Part shown: in pieces, positions 12,535-26,483 of the stretch | Layout: each line of letters begins with the position of its first letter | How positions within the stretch are numbered: position 1 is the first letter of the stretch | Notes under the pieces: model-generated | The model's database searches: none | Told to the model about the DNA's origin: nothing | Seen by the model: the letters and a program-made list of their open reading frames with translations, nothing else | Made by a program: the position numbers and the translations under genes | Assembly: GCF_900564145.1 (NCBI RefSeq) | Contig: NZ_UOOB01000001.1 | Location: 2,048,754 to 2,112,753 of the forward strand | Source: Comamonas sp. lk | Lineage (GTDB): Bacteria; Pseudomonadota; Gammaproteobacteria; Burkholderiales; Burkholderiaceae_C | Length of the DNA: 64,000 bases | Direction: 5' to 3'

Positions 12535-13140
12535 ATGTCGATTTTGCTGATTGCCGGTAGCCCTACACAGCCTTCACGCTCCACCGCGCTGCTACAAGCA
12601 ACGGCTCAGCGCCTGCATGCCCACGGGCTGAGCACCGAGCCCTTGCTGCAGCTGTCCAAATTAGACCCCGTGGCCTTGCTGGGTGCCCAGTTCGATGCGG
12701 CCGAAATTCGAGAGGCCACGGCCCGCATTGCACAGGCCGATGCCATCGTGGTGGCCACGCCGGTTTACAAGGCCGCCTATAGCGGTCTGCTCAAGGTCTT
12801 TCTCGATGTGCTGCCCCAAACCGCGCTCAAGGGCAAGCTGGTCCTGCCGCTGGCCACGGGCGGCAGCCCCCACCACATGCTGGCGCTGGACTATGCCTTG
12901 CGCCCCGTGCTGCAGTCCTTGGGGGCGCGCCACATCCTTCCCGGCATTTACGCCACCGACCAGGGCGTGCCTTTGCTGCCCGAAGGCGGATACGGCATAG
13001 CCGCCGATATCGCCGAACGCGTGGAGGATGCGGCCCATTTGCTGGCTACCGATTTGCGCCGTGCCAGGTTGCAGGAGCCGCTGTACAGCGCTGCCCAATT
13101 TGAAGACATCGCTTTTGCCGATGTGCGATGTAGCGTCTGA
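12535..13140 (+). CDS. ssuE: NADPH-dependent FMN reductase SsuE
   Basis: A 201-residue flavodoxin-fold reductase that supplies FMNH2 to the SsuD monooxygenase. Visible features are the N-terminal flavin phosphate loop AGSPTQPSRSTALL, ATPVYKAAYSGLLKVFLDVLPQ near residue 78 and LATGGSPHHMLALDYALRPVL near residue 105, all standard SsuE positions. It is the first enzyme gene of the alkanesulfonate region. About 200 bases separate it from ssuA. Confidence 0.9.
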   Translation: MSILLIAGSPTQPSRSTALLQATAQRLHAHGLSTEPLLQLSKLDPVALLGAQFDAAEIREATARIAQADAIVVATPVYKAAYSGLLKVFLDVLPQTALKGKLVLPLATGGSPHHMLALDYALRPVLQSLGARHILPGIYATDQGVPLLPEGGYGIAADIAERVEDAAHLLATDLRRARLQEPLYSAAQFEDIAFADVRCSV

Positions 13141-14386: not shown

Positions 14387-15448
14387 ATGAGTTCTTCATT
14401 GTCTCGCCCCCGTTTCAATCGGGGCCGCCGTCAGGCACTGCAGCTGCTGGGCACCACGGCCTTCAGCTGGACCTTGGCTGCCCATTACGCCAACGCGCAG
14501 GGCACGCCCGTCAGCGGCGCACCGGCTCAGCTGCGCATCGGCTACCAGAAATCCGCCGTGAACCTGGTGGTGCTCAAGCAGCATGGCGTGCTGGAAAAGC
14601 GCTTTCCCCAGACGCAGATCAACTGGCTGGAGTTTCCTGCCGGCCCCCAGCTGCTGGAAGCCTTGTCTGTAGGCAGTCTGGATTTTGGCCTCACCGGCGA
14701 TTCGCCGCCGGTGTTTGCACAGGCTGCCGGCAAGGATTTGCGCTATGTGGGCGCCGAGCCGCCCAAGCCCGAAAGCTCGGCAATTTTGGTGCAGGCCGAC
14801 TCGCCGCTGCAAGCGCTGGCCGATCTCAAGGGCAAGAAGGTCGCGCTGCAAAAAGGCTCGAGCGCCCACTATCTGCTGGTGCGCGCTCTGGACAAGGCCG
14901 GCATTGCCTGGGCCGATATCCAGCCCGTGTATCTGGCGCCGGCCGATGCACGCGCGGCATTCGAGCGCAAAAGCGTGGATGCCTGGGCCATCTGGGATCC
15001 CTATTACGCGGCCACCGAGATCAGCATCCGCCCGCGCGTGCTGACCAATGGCGAAGGACTGTCGGGCAACAACGCCTTTTATCTGTCTTCCAAAGGGCTG
15101 GTGGAGCGCCATCCCCAGGTCATCAGGGCCTTGTTCGACGAACTGACCCGCGCCGATCAACTGGTGCAGACCACCCGCAAGGAAGTGGTGCAGCTGGTGG
15201 CCGCTTTCAGCGGGCTGGAGGCCAATGTGGTCAACCGTTTCATCGGTCGGCGGCCCAGCTCGCCCACCACCTTGCTCAGCCCGGCCATCGTGGCCGATCA
15301 GCAGCGTGTGGCCGATGCTTTTTTTCGTCTGGGCGTGATTCCGCGTCAGGTGCGGGTGGCTGACATTGTCTGGCAACCCACCGCTGAGCAATACGCCAAA
15401 TACGCCCAGCTCAATTCCTCTGCCCCCAGCGTGGCCGCCAAGATTTAA
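14387..15448 (+). CDS. Aliphatic sulfonate-binding protein, SsuA family (copy 2)
   Basis: A 353-residue paralogue of the preceding gene, with the same blocks (LRIGYQKSAVNLVVLKQHG, LDFGLTGDSPPVFAQAAG, YLAPADARAAFERKSVDAWA). The leader GRRQALQLLGTTAFSWTLAAHYANAQ is also twin-arginine-like. Two tandem binding proteins before one SsuD/SsuC/SsuB set suggest a wider or differently tuned sulfonate range. The copies are clearly diverged, so the duplication is old. Only 12 bases separate it from ssuD. Confidence 0.88.
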   Translation: MSSSLSRPRFNRGRRQALQLLGTTAFSWTLAAHYANAQGTPVSGAPAQLRIGYQKSAVNLVVLKQHGVLEKRFPQTQINWLEFPAGPQLLEALSVGSLDFGLTGDSPPVFAQAAGKDLRYVGAEPPKPESSAILVQADSPLQALADLKGKKVALQKGSSAHYLLVRALDKAGIAWADIQPVYLAPADARAAFERKSVDAWAIWDPYYAATEISIRPRVLTNGEGLSGNNAFYLSSKGLVERHPQVIRALFDELTRADQLVQTTRKEVVQLVAAFSGLEANVVNRFIGRRPSSPTTLLSPAIVADQQRVADAFFRLGVIPRQVRVADIVWQPTAEQYAKYAQLNSSAPSVAAKI

Positions 15449-15460
15449 GGACATTCGATC

Positions 15461-16669
15461 ATGCAAGTTTTCTGGTTCATTCCTACCCACGGTGACGCCC
15501 GCTATCTGGGCACCAGCGAGGGCGCCCGTCAGCTCAGTCACGACTATGTGAAGCAGGTGGCCATCGCCGCAGACAGCCTGGGCTACGAGGGCGTGTTGAT
15601 TCCCACCGGCCGCTCCTGCGAAGACCCCTGGGTGGTGGCCTCCAGCCTGATTGCCGTCACCAAGCGCCTGAGGTTTCTGGTGGCCGTGCGCCCCGGCCTG
15701 CATCAGCCTAGTCTGGCCGCGCGCATGGCGGCCAGTTTTGACCGGCTCTCGGGCGGTCGTCTGCTGATCAATCTGGTCACCGGCGGCGATCAGGCCGAGC
15801 TGGAGGGCGACGGCGTGTTTCTGGATCACGCCACGCGCTATGAGCAATCGGCAGAGTTCATCAAGATCTGGCGCGAGATTCTGGAACGCAGCCATGAAGG
15901 AAAGTCGCTGGATTTTGAAGGCCAGCATCTGCAGGTCAAAGGCGCCAAGCTGCTGTTCCCGCCGCTGCAAAAACCGTATCCGCCCGTGTATTTCGGTGGC
16001 TCTTCGCCGGCGGCCCATGATCTGGCTGCAGAGCAGGTCGACGCCTATCTGACCTGGGGCGAGCCGCCTGCCGAAGTGGCCAAGAAGCTGGCCGATGTGC
16101 GAGCGAAAGCCGAGCGCCTGGGCCGCAAAGTCAAATTCGGTATCCGCCTGCATGTGATCGTCCGTGAGACCGATGAGGAAGCCTGGGCCGATGCCGAGCG
16201 ACTGATCAGCCGGCTCAAGGACGAGACCGTGGTACAGGCCCAGGCCGCATTTGCACGCATGGATTCCGAAGGCCAGCGTCGCATGGCAGCCCTGCACGCC
16301 GGCGGCAGCAAGCGCAGCCGCGCCGATCTGGAAATCAGTCCCAACCTCTGGGCCGGCGTGGGTCTGGTGCGTGGCGGTGCTGGCACGGCGCTGGTGGGCA
16401 GTGCGCAGACGGTGGCAGACCGCATCAAGGAATACGCCGATCTGGGCATAGACACTTTTGTGCTCTCGGGCTACCCGCATCTGGAGGAAGCCTATCGCTT
16501 TGCCGAATTGGTCTTCCCGCTGCTGCCGGTGAACGTGCAGCAAAAGCTGGGGGGCGGCAATCCCAGCGGCCCGTTTGGTGAGACCGTGGCCAATTTGTAC
16601 TCGCCGGGCGCCGGTGCGCTGGGCGTCCGCGATCAGGTTCGCGACCAGGTCCGTGTTTCGCAAAGCTGA
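15461..16669 (+). CDS. ssuD: FMNH2-dependent alkanesulfonate monooxygenase SsuD
   Basis: A 402-residue TIM-barrel flavin monooxygenase of the bacterial-luciferase superfamily. It uses FMNH2 from SsuE and O2 to convert alkanesulfonates to aldehyde and sulfite. [17 protein letters not shown], the conserved Cys in [32 protein letters not shown] and LINLVTGGD match SsuD closely. It is about 20 residues longer than the E. coli enzyme because of a C-terminal tail. It sits directly between ssuA copy 2 and ssuC. Confidence 0.94.
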
Positions 16670-16679
16670 AGGAGCAGGC

Positions 16680-17507
16680 ATGAGCGATGTTCAAACTCTG
16701 GCTTTGAAACCTGTAGCCCAGGCGGTGCCCCGGCTGGAGCTGTTTGCCCGTCAGCTTGGCCTACGGCTGCTGCCCTGGCTGTTGCCGCTGCTGCTGATAG
16801 CCGCATGGCAGGCCGCCTCGGCCTATGGCTGGCTCTCGACGCGGGTACTGCCCGCGCCGCTGGATGTGCTGCGCGCGGCCTGGACGCTGGCCGAGTCGGG
16901 CGAGCTGTGGACGCACGTCAAGGTCAGCGCCGGACGCGCCTTGCTGGGCCTGGCGATTGGCGGCAGCCTGGGCTTGTTGCTGGGCCTGTTCACGGGCTCG
17001 CTGCGCTGGGCCGAGACGCTGCTCGACTCCACGATTCAGATGGTGCGCAACATCCCGGCGCTAGCCCTGATTCCGCTGGTGATTCTGTGGTTTGGCATTG
17101 ATGAATCGGCCAAGCTGTTTCTGATCAGCATCTCGGTGTTCTTTCCCATCTATCTCAACACTTTTCACGGCATCCGCAATGTGGACCCGGGCCTGATCGA
17201 GATGGGCAAGAGCTACGGCCTGACCCGCTGGCAGCTGTACCGCGACATCGTGCTGCCGGGAGCGCTGTCCTCGATTCTCGTGGGCCTGCGTTTCTCTCTG
17301 GGGCTGATGTGGGTGATTCTCATCGTGGCCGAAACCATCTCGGCCCAGGCAGGCATTGGCTATCTGACCATGAATGCCCGGGAGTTTTTGCAGACCGATG
17401 TGGTGCTGGTAGGAATTTTGCTCTATGCCTTGCTGGGCAAGCTGGCCGATCTGTTTGCCCGGTCGCTGGAACGCTGGTGGCTGCGTTGGCATCCGGGGTA
17501 TCAGTGA
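16680..17507 (+). CDS. ssuC: Aliphatic sulfonate ABC transporter permease SsuC
   Basis: A 275-residue inner-membrane permease with about six hydrophobic segments. The EAA-type loop EMGKSYGLTRWQLYRDIVLPGAL near residue 175 and the block RNIPALALIPLVILWFGIDE are typical of SsuC/TauC. The ATG at 16680 follows AAGGAGCAGGC, 10 bases after the ssuD stop; a longer frame upstream lies within ssuD. Confidence 0.92.
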   Translation: MSDVQTLALKPVAQAVPRLELFARQLGLRLLPWLLPLLLIAAWQAASAYGWLSTRVLPAPLDVLRAAWTLAESGELWTHVKVSAGRALLGLAIGGSLGLLLGLFTGSLRWAETLLDSTIQMVRNIPALALIPLVILWFGIDESAKLFLISISVFFPIYLNTFHGIRNVDPGLIEMGKSYGLTRWQLYRDIVLPGALSSILVGLRFSLGLMWVILIVAETISAQAGIGYLTMNAREFLQTDVVLVGILLYALLGKLADLFARSLERWWLRWHPGYQ

Positions 17508-17510
17508 TCA

Positions 17511-17567
17511 CCCCCTGAGGGGGACGACGCCTTCGCCGCGAGGCGGCTCTTGCTTGGCGTCTCTCGC
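17511..17567 (+). repeat. Dispersed intergenic repeat, copy 1
   Basis: CCCCCTGAGGGGGACGACGC starts a block that continues with CGCGAGGCGGCTCTTGC and ends GCGTCTC. A related copy lies on the other strand at 21071-21124, also between genes. CCCCCTGAGGGGG is a perfect palindrome and the whole block is rich in stem-loops, as in REP/BIME-type elements. Confidence 0.6.
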
Positions 17568-17617
17568 AAGGAGTGGGTCGATTTTGAGCTTGATGGGAAA
17601 AATTTGAGGAGCTTGTG

Positions 17618-18586
17618 ATGAGCAATTTGTGGAGTCGTTTGACGCAGTCGCTGACCAGTGCCGGCGCCTTGAATGTGCGTCAGCCACTGGTGGCCTGGGA
17701 GTCCTCGTGGGACGAGGCCGAGGCCTTGCAGGCAAGTGGCCTGCTGTGGCGCAAGTCGAAAGATGCAGAGCCAGCGGAGGCCGACCGTGTGAAGCTGCAA
17801 GGTGTGCATTTGCAGACGCAGCAGCTGACCAAGCGCTATGGCGAACGTGAAGTCCTGAAGCAGGTGCAGCTTGATGCGCGGCCCGGCGAATTCATCGCCA
17901 TCGTGGGGCGCAGCGGCTGCGGCAAGTCCACCTTGTTGCGTCTGGTGGCGGGGCTGGAAAAATCCAGCGTCGGCCAGGTGCTGATTGACGACGCGGCCGC
18001 CGACACGGCGCGGCAGGACACGCGCATCATGTTTCAGGATGCCCGCTTGCTGCCCTGGCTGCGCGTGCTGGACAACGTGATTCTGGGCCTGCCGCCATCG
18101 GCAAAGGACAAAGGCCGGGAGGTGCTGGCCCAGGTGGGTCTGGCAGATCGCGAGAACGAATGGCCTGCCAAGCTTTCCGGCGGCCAACGCCAGCGCGTGG
18201 CCTTGGCCCGGGCACTGGTGCACCAGCCGCGTCTGCTGCTGTTGGACGAGCCTCTGGGTGCACTTGACGCGTTGACGCGCATAGAGATGCACAGACTCAT
18301 CGAAGGTCTCTGGCAGCGCCATGGCTTCACGGCCTTGCTGGTGACCCACGATGTGCAGGAGGCCGTAGCCTTGGCAGACCGGGTCATCCTCATTGAAGAC
18401 GGGCGCATTGCGCTGGACGAACGCATTGAGCTGCCGCGGCCGCGCGTGCATGGCGATCCGCGCTTCGCGGCGCTGGAGACCCGCATTCTCGATCGCGTGC
18501 TGCAAAAGCCCGATGTGGCGCCGCCTTCGCTTCCCTCAGAACCCTGGCCCGGTGTGTCCGCATCAGGCCTGCGCTGGGCTATTTAA
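17618..18586 (+). CDS. ssuB: Aliphatic sulfonates import ATP-binding protein SsuB, with an N-terminal extension
   Basis: A 322-residue ABC ATPase for sulfonate import. Residues about 58-285 form the ABC domain: Walker [10 protein letters not shown], signature [15 protein letters not shown], Walker [16 protein letters not shown]-loop VTHD. Residues 1-57 precede the domain and are absent from E. coli SsuB. The first 44 match the free-standing 67-residue protein at 12183. ATG 17618 is used (TTGAGGAGCTTGTG upstream), so the extension is probably translated. A dispersed repeat separates it from ssuC. Confidence 0.9.
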
Positions 18587-20212: not shown

Positions 20213-21010
20213 TCAGCGCATCACCAGGCCGCCGTCCACCAACAACACCTGTCCCGTCATAAAGCCGCTGAGCTCCGAGGCCAGGAACAGCACCGGCCCG
20301 GCCACGTCCTCTGGTCTGGCCAGGCGTCTGAGCGGCGTGGCCGCCATCAGTGACTCGCGAAACGATTCCTTGGTGTTTTGCGTGCCCTGCGTGGGGTAGA
20401 CCAGGCCTGGTGCCACGCAGTTGACGCGTATGCCCATAGGTCCCAGCTCGCAGGCCAGATTGCGGCTGAAGGACACCAGCGATGCCTTGGCTGTGGTGTA
20501 GTCGTGATAGGGCACGACAGGGTGCTCCACCAGATTGCTGACGATGTTGACGATGCTGCCCCGTGCGCGCTGACGCATCTGCGGCAGTACTGCGCGGCAG
20601 ACGTTGAAGGCTGCGCCCACGGCGCCGTCGAACTGGGCCTGATAGTCGCTCCACTCCAGATCGTCGAAGCGCTTGCGACGCTCGGGGTCGAAAGCATAGG
20701 GTCTGAAGGCGTTGTTGACCACGATGTCTATGGCCCCGGCCTCGCGGACGATGCCGTCCACCATGGACTGGACGTCGGCTTGCGAGCCCACGTCGGCCTT
20801 GACGGCCCAGGCATCGCCGCTCATGTCCTGGCCAGCAGCCTGGCAGGTCGCCACCGTGCTGGCGGCAGCCTCATCATTGGACAGATAGTTGACCGCCACG
20901 GTCGCGCCCTGGCGTGCCAGCGCCGTGGCAATGGCGGCGCCTATGCCACGGCCGGCACCCGTGACCAGTGCCACCTTGCCGCGCAGATTCATTCCAGAAG
21001 CTTGATTCAT
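20213..21010 (-). CDS. SDR family oxidoreductase (FabG-like), possible last gene of the TPP-riboswitch cluster
   Basis: A 265-residue short-chain dehydrogenase. The nucleotide-binding motif TGAGRGIG is near residue 18, NNAF replaces the usual NNAG, and the catalytic YTTAK follows a Ser-containing stretch (NIVSNLVEHP). The end LLVDGGLVMR is typical of classical SDRs. It shares orientation with the LuxE/LuxC/ABC cluster, 139 bases downstream of the binding-protein gene, with a dispersed repeat between. If co-transcribed it could reduce the aldehyde made by the LuxC-like enzyme to an alcohol. That link is inference; a separate transcript is equally possible. Confidence 0.8.
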   Translation of the reverse strand: MNQASGMNLRGKVALVTGAGRGIGAAIATALARQGATVAVNYLSNDEAAASTVATCQAAGQDMSGDAWAVKADVGSQADVQSMVDGIVREAGAIDIVVNNAFRPYAFDPERRKRFDDLEWSDYQAQFDGAVGAAFNVCRAVLPQMRQRARGSIVNIVSNLVEHPVVPYHDYTTAKASLVSFSRNLACELGPMGIRVNCVAPGLVYPTQGTQNTKESFRESLMAATPLRRLARPEDVAGPVLFLASELSGFMTGQVLLVDGGLVMR

Positions 21011-21070
21011 CTCAATTTTCCATTGTGCTGATATGTCGCTCGCAGACCTTCAAGCTGGCGCGGGCAAAGT

Positions 21071-21124
21071 GTGAGACACCGAGGAAGGGCCGCCCCGCAC
21101 CGAGGGCGTCGTCCCCCTCAGAGG
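21071..21124 (-). repeat. Dispersed intergenic repeat, copy 2
   Basis: Read on the minus strand it begins CCCTCTGAGGGGGACGACGC and ends GGTGTCTCAC, paralleling the copy at 17511-17567 without length difference in the aligned part. It lies between the binding-protein gene and the SDR gene. Confidence 0.6.
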
Positions 21125-21149
21125 GAAGCTGCATAGCGACTCAGGGGAA

Positions 21150-22154
21150 CTACAGCAAGCTGGTGGTCACGACGTCAGACACCTTGATCTGGCGCTGTAC
21201 CAGACCCAGAGCGTGATAGGCATCGGCCCCTTTTTGCAGGGCTGCGATGTCGAAGCTGCCCAGAGGCTTGCCAGCCTGTACCGGCTGGGAGGACGCATTG
21301 CGCAGGCGGATCACGTCGAGGTTGATGTCGCGCTGCGTGCCGTCGATGGCGTACTTGCCGGCCAGGGTCGCTGCCTCCTCGGGGTTGGCCATCATCCAGG
21401 CCGCGCTGTCGCGGTAGCCCTTGAGGAAAGCCTTGAGCAAATCCTTCTTCTCGCGCAGCACATCCTCGCGCACCACGAACATATCGCTGGAGATGTTCAG
21501 GTGCTCGCGCACCTGCATCACGTTGACTTCGCCAATGCCTTTGCGCAGGCCCACGGTCAGACCGGTGTCGGTGGCAGCCGTGGCATCGACCTGGCCTTGC
21601 ATCAGCGGCGCGAAGTTGAGCAGGCCGGTGACGACGATGGTCACATCCGATTCCTTGAGGCCGGCCTGGTGCAGCATCACCAGCAGGTTCTGGCGCGTGC
21701 CGCTGGACAGGCTGTAGACGCCAATTTTCTTGCCCTTGAGGTCGGCCGGCTTGTGAATGCCTGCCGACTTGAGCGAGACCACGTTGAATACGTTTTGCGG
21801 ATAGATGTCGTAGATGGCGACCAGCTTCTCGCCCTTGTCCAGTGCCATGAAGAAGGAGCCTGGATCGGTGAAGGCCACATCGGCCTGGCCGCTGAGCATA
21901 TTGCGTATGGCATCGCCACCGCCCGCCCCCGGCAGGTAGGCCAGCTCCAGGCCCTGGGCCTTGAAAAAGCCTTTTTCGGGCTCGACCAAAATGTTGGTGA
22001 TCTCGCTGATGGGCTTGCTCCAGCCTGCCAGGCGGATCTTTCCCTGGACAGGAGCGGCCAGGCTGGTGCCCGCCAGCGTCAGGCCGGTGAGAGCGGCACC
22101 GGCGCCAAGCAGGCTGCGGCGGGAGATGAACGGAGGCTGAATCGGTGTGTGCAT
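21150..22154 (-). CDS. ABC transporter substrate-binding protein, THI5/NMT1-like (ThiY-type)
   Basis: A 334-residue periplasmic binding protein of the NMT1/THI5 fold, which includes binding proteins for thiamin pyrimidine precursors, nitrate, taurine and sulfonates. The leader has a twin-arginine motif (SRRSLLGAGAALTG) and an AA cleavage region. PEKGFFKAQGLELAYLPGAGGGDAIRNMLSGQADVAF is the classic fold start. The ATG at 22154 gives a normal leader; an upstream TTG at 22166 is possible. Sequence alone would allow sulfonate or nitrate, but the TPP riboswitch at the head of the cluster points to a thiamin-related ligand. Confidence 0.8.
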   Translation of the reverse strand: MHTPIQPPFISRRSLLGAGAALTGLTLAGTSLAAPVQGKIRLAGWSKPISEITNILVEPEKGFFKAQGLELAYLPGAGGGDAIRNMLSGQADVAFTDPGSFFMALDKGEKLVAIYDIYPQNVFNVVSLKSAGIHKPADLKGKKIGVYSLSSGTRQNLLVMLHQAGLKESDVTIVVTGLLNFAPLMQGQVDATAATDTGLTVGLRKGIGEVNVMQVREHLNISSDMFVVREDVLREKKDLLKAFLKGYRDSAAWMMANPEEAATLAGKYAIDGTQRDINLDVIRLRNASSQPVQAGKPLGSFDIAALQKGADAYHALGLVQRQIKVSDVVTTSLL

Positions 22155-22179
22155 GGCGCGGATCAAACAGTGGAGAAAC

Positions 22180-22968
22180 TCAAGACTTGCCGCTTGAGCG
22201 AGAGATTGGAAAGGCGTGGGTGCGCAGCAGTCTGCGCTCCAGCATCAGACAGGCCTGATACAGCAGCAGGCCCATGGCGGCGATGATGACCAGGGCCGCG
22301 AACATCAAAGAGGTGTCCATCATTCCCTGGGCGGCAATGACCACGGCGCCCAGGCCGCGGCTGGCGCCCATGAACTCGGCCACCACCGCACCGACCAGAG
22401 CCAGAACCACGGCCACGCGCAGACCCGCCAGGATGGCGGGCAGGCCCGCGGGCAGTTTCAGGCGCAGCAGCGTCTGCAGGCGCGTTGCCCCCAGCATGCG
22501 AAACAGCTGCAGCCGCTGGGCATCGACCTGCCTGAGGCCGGTCAGCGTGTTCTCCATCAGCGGGAAAAAGCAGATCAGCGCCGTGATCAGCACCGTGGGC
22601 AACATGCCAAAGCCGAACCACAGCACAAACAGCGGCGCCAGCGCCAGCTTGGGTACGACCTGGCTGACCACCACATAGGGCTTGAGCACACGCTCCAGCA
22701 ATTCCCATTCGGCCAGTGCCATGCCCATCAGCAGACCGGCCAGGCTGCCGGCCGCCAGGCCCAGCAGCAGGGCTTGCAGCGTTGCTAGCAGGTGCGGCCA
22801 GAAATAGCCCGAGGCCAGGCCCGTCCATAGCGACGCTGCCACCACCGAAGGCGCGGGCAGCACCAGGGCCGACAGACCCCATTGCCGCACCAGCAGCTCC
22901 CACAGGCCCAGCAAAATCAGCAGCAGGGCAGCGGCCAGCAGCCGTGCCTGAAATGGCGTGGCGCTCAT
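22180..22968 (-). CDS. ABC transporter permease (ThiX/SsuC family)
   Basis: A 262-residue inner-membrane permease with about six hydrophobic segments. KYV-type block VLKPYVVVSQVVPKLALAPLFVLWFGFG and the EAA-like loop QLFRMLGATRLQTLLRLKLPAGLPA near residue 165 place it in the BPD_transp_1 family of nitrate/taurine/thiamin-precursor permeases. Its ATG overlaps the stop of the ATPase gene (ATGA), so the two are translationally coupled. Ligand assignment depends on the riboswitch. Confidence 0.85.
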   Translation of the reverse strand: MSATPFQARLLAAALLLILLGLWELLVRQWGLSALVLPAPSVVAASLWTGLASGYFWPHLLATLQALLLGLAAGSLAGLLMGMALAEWELLERVLKPYVVVSQVVPKLALAPLFVLWFGFGMLPTVLITALICFFPLMENTLTGLRQVDAQRLQLFRMLGATRLQTLLRLKLPAGLPAILAGLRVAVVLALVGAVVAEFMGASRGLGAVVIAAQGMMDTSLMFAALVIIAAMGLLLYQACLMLERRLLRTHAFPISRSSGKS

Positions 22969-23723
22969 AGGGCAGTCCTGTCCATGGATGCGCGCACGCG
23001 GGCACAGTATTCGTTGAAGAGCGGACCATGGCGCATGGCCTGGGTGCGGGGCGCGGGCAGCTCAATCGTCCAGTCGTCCACAATGCGCCCGCCATGCATG
23101 AGTGCGATGCGGTCGCCCAGGTAGACGGCTTCATTGATGTCGTGGGTGACGAAGAGCACCGTGGTGCCGCGTTCGCGGCAGGTGCGCAGCAGATCGTCCT
23201 GCAGCTCGGCGCGTGTGATGGCGTCCAGGGCGGCAAAAGGCTCATCCAGCAGCAACAGCGGTGGGGCAAGAATCAGCGCCCGTGCCAGAGCCGCACGGCT
23301 TTGCTGGCCGCCAGAGAGCTGGCGTGGATGCTGTTGTGCATGGCTTGCCAGTCCCAGTTGATCCAGCAGTTGCAGCGCATGCTGCCTGTCCTGTGGTGTG
23401 GGTTTGCGCTGCAGCGAAACAGGCAGCAGCACATTGTTCAGCACTGTCAGCCAATCGAGCAGCGTGGGGGCCTGGAACATAAAGCCCACTTGCGGCCCGG
23501 GTGCGGCCAACTCGCCCCTACGTTCGCGATCATGCAACACGATGCGGCCAGATTGCGGTCTGAGCAGGCCTGCAGCCAGCTTGAGCAGCGTGGTCTTGCC
23601 GCAGCCGCTGCGGCCCAGCAGGCAGTGAATTTCGCCGGCTTGCATACGCCAGTCCACACCGTCCACTACCGGGGCATGGCCGGGATAGGTGAAGACCGCT
23701 CGTTCGATCTCGAGAAAAGCCAT
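22965..23723 (-). CDS. ABC transporter ATP-binding protein (ThiZ/SsuB family)
   Basis: A 252-residue ABC ATPase: Walker [11 protein letters not shown], signature QLSGGQQSRAALARAL, Walker B LLLLDEPFAALDAI, H-loop VTHD. The ATG at 23723 (MAFLEIE) is preferred because GAGG lies just before it; the frame also opens five codons upstream. The start is 4 bases after the luxC-like stop. With the permease and binding protein it forms a full importer of the thiamin-precursor/sulfonate/nitrate type. Confidence 0.87.
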   Translation of the reverse strand: MAFLEIERAVFTYPGHAPVVDGVDWRMQAGEIHCLLGRSGCGKTTLLKLAAGLLRPQSGRIVLHDRERRGELAAPGPQVGFMFQAPTLLDWLTVLNNVLLPVSLQRKPTPQDRQHALQLLDQLGLASHAQQHPRQLSGGQQSRAALARALILAPPLLLLDEPFAALDAITRAELQDDLLRTCRERGTTVLFVTHDINEAVYLGDRIALMHGGRIVDDWTIELPAPRTQAMRHGPLFNEYCARVRASMDRTAL

Positions 23724-23727
23724 GTCC

Positions 23728-25179
23728 TCAGTCCGCATAAGAGGCCAAGGGTTGGGCCGCTAGCTCGGCCGATTGCTCGATCTCGGTCATGCGCACCAGA
23801 TCGATCAGATTGAAGCGCCCGTCATGGTGCCAGCCGGCCTCGGGCATGCTCATGGAACCTATGGCACTGATGCGCGTAACGCCGGCGGCGCCCAGCAGAC
23901 CGGCCAGCCGGTATAGCTGCTCGGGTGTGGCGGCAATGCCGGCGGTCTGCAGGAATTCGCGCTGCGCGGCAACCACGGGGACCACGGCATCCAGGCTGTC
24001 CACGCCGACCACGGCAATCGTGCGGTATAGGGCCGTGGGCGTCAGCGGCTGCAGGCTGTCGCTATAGGCCACGCTCCAGGGTGCATCCACCGGGCCCAGC
24101 AACTGCTGCTCGTCACCTGCCCACTCCACGCTCTGCTGCCATTTGGCGATGGCCGTGCCTTCCTCCAGAGCCAGGGGGCGGCGCGCAAAGCGGCGCTGCA
24201 GATTGGCCAGCTCGGCGGCCAGATAGTCGGTAAAGGCGCGCGGGCTCACGGGAGCGCCACGCTCCACATAAAAGACATGGGGCGAGTAGCAGCCTTGCTG
24301 GTCGTAGCGCATCACGTCCCAGGCGGCGAGGCGGGCCGTAGCGGGAGCTTTGAGCGTATCCATTGCGGCCGCGCCGATCAGGCCAAAGCCCAGCTTGTGG
24401 CCGTGGGGCAGAAAGCGGGTGGTCACGGGCAGGCGCCGGCGCAGCGCATCCAGCGTCTGGTTGCCGCCATAGGCCAGCACCGTATCAGCGCGCTCGTACA
24501 AGGCGCTGGCTTCCTCTGTGCCCGCGCCGCTCCACCACACCACGGCCAGACAATCGGCCAACGGCGGATGGACTTCGGCCAGCAGCCGTGCAAACCAGCC
24601 TGCGAACAGTGGCTCGGCGCTTGCCAGCTTGCCTATGCTGGGTGCCTTGACCAGCAGGCCGCAGACCAGGCTCCACAGCGACAGCGCCGGTACGTTGCCC
24701 GCCCAGCTGTGCACCAGCAGATCAGGCCCGAAGGCCCGTACGGCTCCGCCCTTGGGCGCGGGCTGGAAACCGTCCAGTACGGCGGGGTTGGCAAAATCCT
24801 CGGCCACAAAGCGCCGCAGCTGCGCGGCGCGGAAGGTCTTGAAAAACCCGGTCAGTCCCAGCCGCACCATGTCCGCGTCGTAGCCGCTGACCACGGGCAG
24901 CCAGGCTTCGGCCTGTTGGCGATACGGATCATTGCGGTCAAGCAGGCGCGCAATGGCTCGGTCGATCACGGCGATGATCTCTGCCACCGTCATGGTTCGC
25001 AGATGGCGATCTGCCGCCTGCTGCACCCGATCCGCCAGCGCCCGCATCTGGGCGGCGCTCAGCACGGGAACAGAGACTTCCAGCCGCAGGTCCTCGCGTT
25101 CAAAGGGCAGCACTTGCCACTGAACCTCGTCGTCGCGTAAGCCGGGCAGATAGCCGGCCGTGATCCGCTCGATCTTCAT
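23728..25179 (-). CDS. LuxC-like acyl-CoA/acyl-protein reductase
   Basis: A 483-residue protein of the LuxC family, which is related to aldehyde dehydrogenases and reduces an activated acyl group (thioester) to an aldehyde with NADPH. Visible features: HSWAGNVPALSLWSLVCGLLVKAPSIGK near residue 150, YGGNQTLDALRRRLP near residue 235, and DQQGCYSPHVFYVERG near residue 290 with the conserved catalytic Cys. The C-terminal RISAIGSMSMPEAGWHHDGRFNLIDLVR is also typical. The ATG at 25179 overlaps the LuxE-like stop (ATGA). No luxA, luxB or luxD is present, so the aldehyde is not for luminescence. The TPP-controlled context suggests reduction of a carboxylated thiamin precursor; this is inference. Confidence 0.88.
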   Translation of the reverse strand: MKIERITAGYLPGLRDDEVQWQVLPFEREDLRLEVSVPVLSAAQMRALADRVQQAADRHLRTMTVAEIIAVIDRAIARLLDRNDPYRQQAEAWLPVVSGYDADMVRLGLTGFFKTFRAAQLRRFVAEDFANPAVLDGFQPAPKGGAVRAFGPDLLVHSWAGNVPALSLWSLVCGLLVKAPSIGKLASAEPLFAGWFARLLAEVHPPLADCLAVVWWSGAGTEEASALYERADTVLAYGGNQTLDALRRRLPVTTRFLPHGHKLGFGLIGAAAMDTLKAPATARLAAWDVMRYDQQGCYSPHVFYVERGAPVSPRAFTDYLAAELANLQRRFARRPLALEEGTAIAKWQQSVEWAGDEQQLLGPVDAPWSVAYSDSLQPLTPTALYRTIAVVGVDSLDAVVPVVAAQREFLQTAGIAATPEQLYRLAGLLGAAGVTRISAIGSMSMPEAGWHHDGRFNLIDLVRMTEIEQSAELAAQPLASYAD

Positions 25180-26258
25180 GCGGCAGCAGCTTTCACAAAC
25201 TCCTCTACGGCCAGCGAACAGCCCTTGGCGGCCGCACCCTCGGCACGGCCCAGCAGCAGAAAACCACCCTCGGCCCACAGGCCCACGTCCTCGGTCAGTA
25301 TGGTGGTGACGGCGTTGTAGTTGGCCAGGTCGCAGTGCACGAGGATGCCGCGCTCGCCGGGTGCCACGTTGCGGCCGGTGACGGGCTCGACCAGGCGCGA
25401 GCGTATCCAGTGCGGCCCCGATTTGACCGAGGGCAGCACGGTGTTGCCGTCGTCATAGAACTGCGTGCTCAGCTCGGTCATGCCATACATATTGATGCAG
25501 TGACTGAGCGGCACGCCCAGCAGCTGGGACAGGTCGGCATAGAACTCCTCCAGCGGCAACTCGCGCGACTGGCCTTTGTAGCCGCCCGTGTCGAGAATGC
25601 GGCTGCCCGCAGGCAGGCGAAAGCTACGGCCCTGGGCACGCAGAGCGTCCATCACATGTACCAGGCTGAAGCTGGCACCCAGCAGTGCATAAGGTCGGTC
25701 TGTACGTTCGGATTCCTCCAGAGCCGCGCACAGCGCCGGCATGTCCAGCCCCTCAGAGCCCAGGAAATAGCGGCTGTCAGGCGTGCCGAACTCAGACTTG
25801 GCCAGCGCTAGATAATGCGCCAGCGAGGAATTGGGCATGGCTTGCTCGTCGGGGAAAAGAATGCCCATGGGCAGACGCTCCGCTCCTTGCATGAAGCGCT
25901 GTGCGAAGTTGCGCGTCATCGACAGATCGTAGACGTCGAGCAGGGGGTGGAAGTGGCGGCCGCGCGCAGCCCGACCCGTAGTGCCGCTGGTCATAAACAC
26001 GCGCTCGGTGGGGGAGGCGGGCTCGCTGCGCAGCTCCATGGCCTTGAAAGCGTCAATGGGTACGGCCGGAATATCGCTCCAGGTCTTCACATTGCGCAGC
26101 GTGGCACCGCGCCGCTGGCAGAAGCTGCGAAACGGCGCATTGGATTCGAACTGATAGGCAAACAGCCGCAGGGCGAGCTGGTCGAACTGGTCGTCGGTGC
26201 AGCCATCCATGGCAATGAATGAGAGCAGGTCTGCGACCAGCGAGGCGGCCTTGTCCAT
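25176..26258 (-). CDS. LuxE-like acyl-protein synthetase (acyl-activating enzyme)
   Basis: A 360-residue protein of the LuxE family, in the ANL/adenylate-forming class. LuxE activates a carboxylic acid with ATP and passes it to the reductase. Seen: phosphate-binding-like FMTSGTTGRAARGRHF near residue 90, LLGASFSLVHVMDALRAQG near residue 190, ILDTGGYKGQSRELP near residue 215 and CINMYGMTELSTQFYDDG near residue 255. The start ATG 26258 is preceded by GAAGGAATTCC. First gene of the unit, 80 bases downstream of the TPP riboswitch; luxC follows with a 4-base overlap. Substrate unknown. Confidence 0.88.
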   Translation of the reverse strand: MDKAASLVADLLSFIAMDGCTDDQFDQLALRLFAYQFESNAPFRSFCQRRGATLRNVKTWSDIPAVPIDAFKAMELRSEPASPTERVFMTSGTTGRAARGRHFHPLLDVYDLSMTRNFAQRFMQGAERLPMGILFPDEQAMPNSSLAHYLALAKSEFGTPDSRYFLGSEGLDMPALCAALEESERTDRPYALLGASFSLVHVMDALRAQGRSFRLPAGSRILDTGGYKGQSRELPLEEFYADLSQLLGVPLSHCINMYGMTELSTQFYDDGNTVLPSVKSGPHWIRSRLVEPVTGRNVAPGERGILVHCDLANYNAVTTILTEDVGLWAEGGFLLLGRAEGAAAKGCSLAVEEFVKAAAA

Positions 26259-26337
26259 GGAATTCCTTCGAGAGCTGGGACATGATGCTCCGAAGGCCCC
26301 TGGCTGTGCCGCAAGCAGGTGCGGTCACGTCAGGATG

Positions 26338-26415
26338 CAAGCTCTTCTTCCGCCGGAATGACCCGGATCAAGTTCTCGGGTGTGGATCTCAGCACGGCAG
26401 TGCACCCCGGAGCGG
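26338..26415 (-). promoter_or_regulatory. TPP riboswitch (THI element)
   Basis: Read on the minus strand, the conserved TPP-aptamer blocks occur in order: CGGGGTGC (26409-26402), GCTGAGA, ACACCC, GAACTTGATC and CGGGTCATTCCGGCGGAAG. These match the THI-element consensus CGGGGUGC, CUGAGA, ACCC, GAACCUGAUC, GGGUAAU.CC.GCG. It ends about 80 bases before the LuxE-like start and points at it. When TPP is abundant such leaders switch off the downstream genes, usually by hiding the ribosome binding site in proteobacteria. So this cluster should be on when thiamin is short. Confidence 0.92.
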
Positions 26416-26483
26416 AGGGCCATCTTACCGCAGTTGCGCTGACGCCGTCGTGTACGGCGGCAAGCGCCCGAATGTCGGTCTGG

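Follow-up and report, generated by a model that had tools for sequence, protein, structure and literature searches.

Known systems and the Comamonas locus

The ThiXYZ, YlmB and TenA proteins constitute the salvage pathway for N-formylaminopyrimidine (FAMP). It has an ATP-binding cassette (ABC) importer of the NMT1/THI5 type, is controlled by thiamin pyrophosphate (TPP), and delivers hydroxymethylpyrimidine (HMP) to ThiD. A six-gene unit of Comamonas sp. lk, located in a stretch of 64,000 nucleotides (positions 2,048,754 to 2,112,753 of contig NZ_UOOB01000001.1, here called the window), resembles this pathway in its TPP aptamer, its importer and its proposed product, and its binding protein shares the fold of 3ix1. 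In contrast, the unit has neither deformylase nor TenA, and the proposed chemistry is an ATP-driven reduction of an acid by homologues of LuxE and LuxC and not a hydrolysis. The unit is likely to be a thiamin-repressed salvage route for the oxidised pyrimidine half of thiamin.

The luminous fatty acid reductase LuxC-LuxE (7xc6) comprises the same two enzyme families, encoded by neighbouring genes, and its LuxC cysteine is in register with that of the unit. It differs from the unit, which has the order luxE-luxC, no luciferase or LuxD gene, scores below the NCBIfam cut-offs, a TPP aptamer, and another proposed substrate. The CytX-type putative HMP permease likewise represents uptake into the HMP branch under TPP control, but it has no attached enzymes and presumably imports HMP itself. 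THI5 HMP phosphate synthase (4h65 and relatives) is a cytosolic enzyme with the same fold as the binding protein of the unit, whereas the latter has a signal-like N-terminus that contains RR, as read from the sequence, and is encoded beside an ABC permease and ATPase.

The initial annotation knew of no described system of this kind. Literature searches found no description of such a unit either; supplements (for example that of PMC3766115) and Rodionov and others (2002) lay outside these searches. The main text of the RNA-regulon comparison PMC3766115, in the portions available and apart from its supplements, does not mention LuxE or LuxC.

The unit comprises the following features, the last of which is a short-chain dehydrogenase/reductase (SDR):

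26328-26419 (-): TPP riboswitch aptamer (THI element); RF00059, model positions 1-105 of 105, 51.5 bits
26259-26327 (-): leader from the aptamer to luxE, with a predicted hairpin that pairs the ribosome-binding site, a putative expression platform (fold of 26240-26425)
25176-26258 (-): LuxE-family acyl-activating enzyme (adenylation, proposed acyl-Cys347); PF04443, 67.7 bits (curated score 24.9)
23728-25179 (-): LuxC-family acyl reductase (proposed catalytic cysteine); PF05893, 261.2 bits (curated score 21)
22965-23738 (-): ATPase of the ABC importer; PF00005
22180-22968 (-): permease of the ABC importer; PF00528
21150-22166 (-): NMT1/THI5-type binding protein; PF09084, 177.7 bits
20213-21010 (-): SDR oxidoreductase, proposed for the step from aldehyde to alcohol; PF13561, 196.5 bits

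TPP aptamer and leader

A TPP aptamer at the head of the leftward unit had been placed at 26338-26415 in the initial annotation. In a permissive Rfam scan, the covariance model RF00059 recovers it at 26328-26419, with an E-value of 2.2e-9 for a search space of 401 bases and 1.1e-7 for 20 kb. The match spans the complete aptamer and is beyond chance, which assigns the element to the RF00059 family. A default Rfam scan of the whole 64-kb window gives no match at or above the gathering score, the aptamer reaching 51.5 bits against 54.3; this score is the curators' noise threshold and not a structural feature of the family. The same Rfam model matches all of 12 related loci, five of them above the cut-off (56.5 to 69.3 bits), and one of the 12 aptamers is cut off. 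The gathering score is also exceeded at L127 and L128, two loci of more distant genomes described below, and at seven of eight plasmid loci.

The genome of strain lk contains three further TPP matches of 55.2, 43.7 and 35.4 bits, and only the first passes the cut-off. By position, they precede ThiC, a ThiO-ThiG-ThiE run, and a CytX-type permease. With four aptamers in 4.9 Mb, the chance that one is placed at most 400 bases upstream of a given gene is about 1.6e-4 by our own arithmetic.

The aptamer would be expected to bind TPP, and control would probably be exerted through the ribosome-binding site. The fold of the whole leader (26240-26425) is no more stable than those of shuffled sequences (z 0.17). 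A recognisable ribosome-binding site occurs in 26 of 32 hand-chosen relatives, and it is paired with a probability above 0.7 in 23 of these 26, a count without a shuffle control.

Proteins of the unit

Pfam identifies all five genes that had been read as LuxE-like, LuxC-like, ATPase, permease and NMT1/THI5-type binding protein. LuxE and LuxC pass the curated Pfam scores and have conserved cysteines, and thus belong to the two superfamilies. They fall far below the NCBIfam equivalog cut-offs for the luminous enzymes, with 66.0 of 550 bits for LuxE and 75.4 of 750 bits for LuxC. The open reading frame (ORF) of luxC was listed up to 25278; the sequence suggests that an ATG at 25179, with a 4-base overlap with the luxE stop, is the likelier start. 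LuxE aligns with its solved relative 7xc6_E, and LuxC aligns with 7xc6_A, including the cysteine.

Residue conservation was counted in length-filtered ORFs from 83 loci, which gave 83 LuxE, 62 LuxC, 75 binding proteins and 76 SDRs, in addition to the window. The LuxE motif T90-S91-G92-T93 is present in 84 of 84 rows and Cys347 in 83 of 84, with one gap. The LuxC cysteine (Cys330 in the numbering of the long ORF) is kept in 63 of 63 rows, and the SDR residues N100, N155, S or T158, Y171, and K175 in 77 of 77.

The PF09084 binding protein and its ABC permease and ATPase, all behind a TPP aptamer, have the composition of a thiamin-precursor importer of the ThiXYZ type. The fold of the binding protein is closest to the FAMP-binding protein 3ix1, which is suggestive of a thiamin pyrimidine as its ligand, and it also resembles the thiamin-bound 4nmy. 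There is no tenA in the window unit, nor is TenA regular among the ThiC-less carriers (see below), and the unit does not represent aminopyrimidine salvage of the TenA type.

No luxA, luxB, or luxD was found within the unit, in agreement with the initial annotation. Elsewhere in the window, an ssu-like sulphonate cluster (14387-18586, +) contains an NMT1-like binding protein and a luciferase-family monooxygenase (PF00296), followed by an apparent permease and ATPase. The Bac_luciferase-family gene at 15461-16669 belongs to this cluster and is not to be mistaken for luxAB.

Conservation and distribution

The unit is real and widely spread. GTDB genomes were scanned with an alignment of 12 LuxE proteins, and of the 397 relatives found, the best 80 loci entered the sample, which is thus biased towards close relatives. 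A search for TPP aptamers by simple regular expression matched only one of the 80 loci and was replaced by a covariance model. This model was built from ten aptamers, all from counted loci, and therefore matches those ten by construction. It finds the aptamer in 79 of the 80 main loci, immediately before luxE or, in loci that start with thiD, before thiD; the sole exception is L082, where the contig begins 269 bases upstream of luxE. The aptamer is also present in 20 of 20 Ramlibacter-group loci (30 were fetched, ten repeating earlier loci), at L012, L013, L127 (a genome of another class) and L128 (another order), and in all eight annotated plasmid loci, which were hand-picked out of 27 plasmid records and are all matched by Rfam's own model. 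Once duplicates are removed, by a comparison of LuxE genes from 127 loci, the unit has a TPP aptamer at its head in 112 of 113 loci, the window included.

The order luxE-luxC-ATPase-permease-binding protein-SDR is the same in 73 of the 80 main loci, and contig ends truncate the remaining seven. The SDR, noted at first only as lying downstream, is counted as a member because it takes sixth place in every one of the 73 loci that extend far enough downstream. Whether LuxC/LuxE homologues behind TPP aptamers travel with THI5-type transporters had been suggested as a check, and in these 73 loci the importer is kept.

Outside the main sample, the importer varies. Judged by annotation, all six genes recur on plasmids of Azospirillum lipoferum and Priestia megaterium. 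In Priestia, identity to the window proteins is 49-64% for LuxE, LuxC, the binding protein and the SDR. Pantoea plasmids and L128 contain luxE-luxC-SDR with no importer beside them, while in Lactiplantibacillus and Levilactobacillus plasmids a xanthine/uracil-type permease precedes luxE-luxC-SDR. The Niallia taxi megaplasmid has two tandem TPP aptamers (L191, 3718-4014, +), followed by thiW, a nucleobase permease, luxE, luxC, and SDR. The shared core is therefore LuxE-LuxC-SDR headed by a TPP aptamer, with an importer that can be exchanged. Many further Bacilli have a LuxE 51-95% identical to that of Niallia, among the best 120 matches listed. On a Pseudomonas silvicola plasmid (L193, 5740-9267), the aptamer is followed by luxE, luxC and SDR matches, and this copy may be broken, since both luxE and SDR are matched as two fragments. 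Overall, the unit is found in soil, plant-associated, and food bacteria across Pseudomonadota and Bacillota, and also on plasmids.

Two plasmids of South Korean origin, from different genera of Lactobacillaceae and both among the eight plasmid loci counted above (L187, 1390-6321; L194, 2947-7878), carry an identical cassette with four shared protein accessions, which points to recent transfer. The record L014, named Pantoea sp., has a LuxE 92% identical to that of the window and a six-gene arrangement unlike the Pantoea plasmids read, and it may be mislabelled or mixed. The aptamer of the unit has a further, divergent TPP match beside it at L115 (270-379, -) and at L122 (285-405, -).

A draw across the phylum gave LuxE matches in seven of 398 genomes, one of them weak (G417). 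The weak match belongs to an 825-residue LuxE-LuxC fusion (L130, 148-2625, +) in the vicinity of a nitrogenase component 1-type gene. The 6 kb read there contain no TPP match, and the fusion was not assigned to this system; it is another, unexplained use of the pair. Elsewhere in the window, a weak DUF3800-VI RNA match at 12761-12813 (+) has 24.5 bits against a cut-off of 35 (E 0.4) and is probably due to chance.

Thiamin genes of the carriers

Other thiamin genes adjoin the unit in part of the sample. thiD is the first gene in 11 of the 80 main loci, and in eight of these thiE, thiO, or thiG follows the SDR, several contigs ending early. In the Ramlibacter group, a thiD match lies just upstream of luxE in all 30 loci fetched (33 carriers). 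The locus L129, from a genome with no ThiC match (G240), has the arrangement TPP-thiD-luxE-luxC-ATPase-permease-binding protein-SDR-thiE-thiO.

ThiC and ThiG were tested in 50 of the 80 carrier genomes. ThiC is missing from 11 of these, nine of which are of the thiD-first type; by title, the ThiC-less isolates are Variovorax dokdonensis, Ramlibacter montanisoli and R. monticola. ThiG is present in 49 of the 50. Of 300 genomes drawn from the order, 262 have ThiC, as do six of the seven carriers among them. Two thiC copies occur in an Achromobacter genome (G315, L038), and two thiG copies in each of two Thauera genomes (G304, L022; G307, L026).

The hydroxyethylthiazole (HET) kinase ThiM is generally absent. 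It is full-length in four of the 51 genomes tested; that of strain lk, which is one of the 51, has no match. At E 0.001, any match is found in 19 of the 51, and five are over the cut-off, the fifth being a partial match in an 880-residue frame.

The Ramlibacter group, with 60 genomes, has LuxE in 33, ThiC in 14, and ThiG in 41. Among the 46 genomes without ThiC, ThiG is present in 25 of the 27 that have LuxE and in three of the 19 that do not (Fisher p 1.2e-7, with related genomes counted singly); among the 14 with ThiC, it is present in 13. Partial matches were counted as present, namely LuxE split in two (G390, G393) or short (G352), ThiC in G379, G384, G387, and G392, and ThiG in G340, G347, and G384. 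Relatedness was corrected for with a Tex gene tree of 56 genomes, made by a quick method, from which G377, G379, G380, and G383 were excluded (marker absent or fragmented). With this tree, ThiG is associated with any pyrimidine source by 7.5 to 0 independent pairs (median p 0.016). Thiazole synthesis serves no purpose unless pyrimidine is available, and the ThiG pattern thus suggests that the unit supplies pyrimidine.

TenA explains little of the ThiG retention. Of the genomes with LuxE and ThiG and without ThiC, 18 of 25 have no TenA match over the cut-off.

Proposed pathway and alternatives

Thiamin-regulated import of an oxidised precursor, with reduction of the acid to an aldehyde and then to an alcohol, had been proposed from the window. 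The conserved aptamer, the six genes, the catalytic residues, the thiD/thiE operons, and the ThiG retention support this proposal. In the pathway as we envisage it, the binding protein and ABC importer, or elsewhere a nucleobase permease, would take up a pyrimidine carboxylate. The LuxE homologue would adenylate the acid with ATP and load it as a thioester on its own C-terminal Cys347. The LuxC homologue would accept the acyl group on its own cysteine and use NAD(P)H to convert it into the aldehyde, which the SDR would reduce to HMP. ThiD would phosphorylate HMP, and ThiE would join the product to the thiazole. At high TPP, the aptamer would switch the unit off, probably by hiding the ribosome-binding site. 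ATP activation and two reductions place the acid two steps above the alcohol HMP, and the acid is probably 4-amino-2-methylpyrimidine-5-carboxylate. This acid is a known thiamin metabolite, going by the title of a paper by Neal and Pearson (1964) that PMC7780320 cites.

Several observations weigh against this pathway or narrow its role. ThiC is present in 39 of the 50 carriers, so that the prediction that carriers lack ThiC is not borne out, and ThiG retention is the informative test. Eight of the 11 ThiC-less carriers are metagenome-assembled genomes and possibly incomplete. LuxE is not linked to ThiC loss in the Ramlibacter group, where 27 of 33 genomes with LuxE and 19 of 27 without it lack ThiC. 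When corrected with the tree, the association of LuxE with ThiG among ThiC-less genomes amounts to only some 4.8 independent pairs against 0 (median p 0.06), which are too few to reach 0.05. Three genomes hold ThiG with neither ThiC nor LuxE, of which one has a strong TenA (G378) and another a weak one (G398), and seven of the 25 genomes with LuxE and ThiG and without ThiC have a TenA match over the cut-off. The Niallia operon also carries thiW, which we take to be a predicted thiazole importer. Finally, ThiC, ThiO, ThiG, ThiE, ThiD and a CytX-type permease are all present in strain lk itself, and the unit there would therefore only supplement a complete set.

These names in the lk genome are backed by NCBIfam and Pfam. 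ThiC, ThiD, and ThiG are over a curated cut-off, and ThiO, ThiE, and CytX are somewhat below those of NCBIfam; the CytX-type permease, which lies behind a weak TPP match, has 249 bits for TIGR02358 against a cut-off of 310. ThiD adjoins ThiO on the opposite strand. The host looks able to make thiamin from scratch.

Among the alternatives, the unit might make HMP, independently of ThiC, from an imported heterocyclic acid that is not a breakdown product of thiamin. The genomic evidence indicates the product HMP and leaves the source of the acid open. However, the fold of the binding protein is nearest to FAMP- and thiamin-binding proteins, and enzymes of these three families can do no more than oxidise or reduce a side chain, which requires that the ring be imported complete. 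This origin of the acid is unlikely.

Import and reduction of oxidised intact thiamin (thiamin acetic acid) would account for the TPP control and for the similarity of the binding protein to the thiamin-bound 4nmy. It would make ThiG superfluous, whereas ThiG is kept in 25 of the 27 ThiC-less carriers of the Ramlibacter group, and it does not agree with the linkage to thiD and thiE. We regard it as distinctly improbable.

The initial annotation named two possible substrates, a pyrimidine carboxylate and thiazole acetate. The first is favoured by the ThiG kept in ThiC-less carriers, and the second is disfavoured by the rarity of full-length ThiM, owing to which a thiazole alcohol made by the unit would be unusable by the usual kinase in most genomes. 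Salvage of thiazole acetate to hydroxyethylthiazole would also fit the TPP control and the acid-to-alcohol chemistry, and the thiW of the Niallia operon speaks for it. The ThiG of nearly all carriers, the thiD that heads the Ramlibacter-group operons, and the nucleobase permease that replaces the transporter in Lactobacillaceae and Niallia oppose it, and it is very improbable.

Action of LuxE and LuxC on fatty acids, with TPP control reflecting some link between a TPP enzyme and an aldehyde, agrees with the database name long-chain fatty acid-CoA ligase and the distant homology to the 7xc6 complex, but it can practically be set aside given the low NCBIfam scores, the NMT1/THI5-type importer or nucleobase permease alongside in most loci, and the thiD/thiE operons.

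Biological meaning

Salvage of an imported pyrimidine carboxylate, reduced by LuxE, LuxC, and SDR under TPP control, would constitute a further route to the thiamin pyrimidine beside ThiC and FAMP/TenA. On balance, we lean towards the view that this route exists across Pseudomonadota and Bacillota, is able to replace ThiC, and implies an unmeasured B1 vitamer that is traded among microbes. The pyrimidine vitamers of a coastal-water survey (PMC10881298), in the part of that paper available, are HMP, aminomethylpyrimidine (AmMP) and FAMP, and the B1-related compound predicted here, the pyrimidine carboxylate, is absent from that list. The pathway would assign a function to a large group of proteins that are named 'long-chain fatty acid-CoA ligase', 'CoF synthetase', and 'acyl-CoA reductase'. 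It would also explain thiamin synthesis in some bacteria without ThiC, and would extend the roles of enzymes known from bioluminescence to vitamin recycling.

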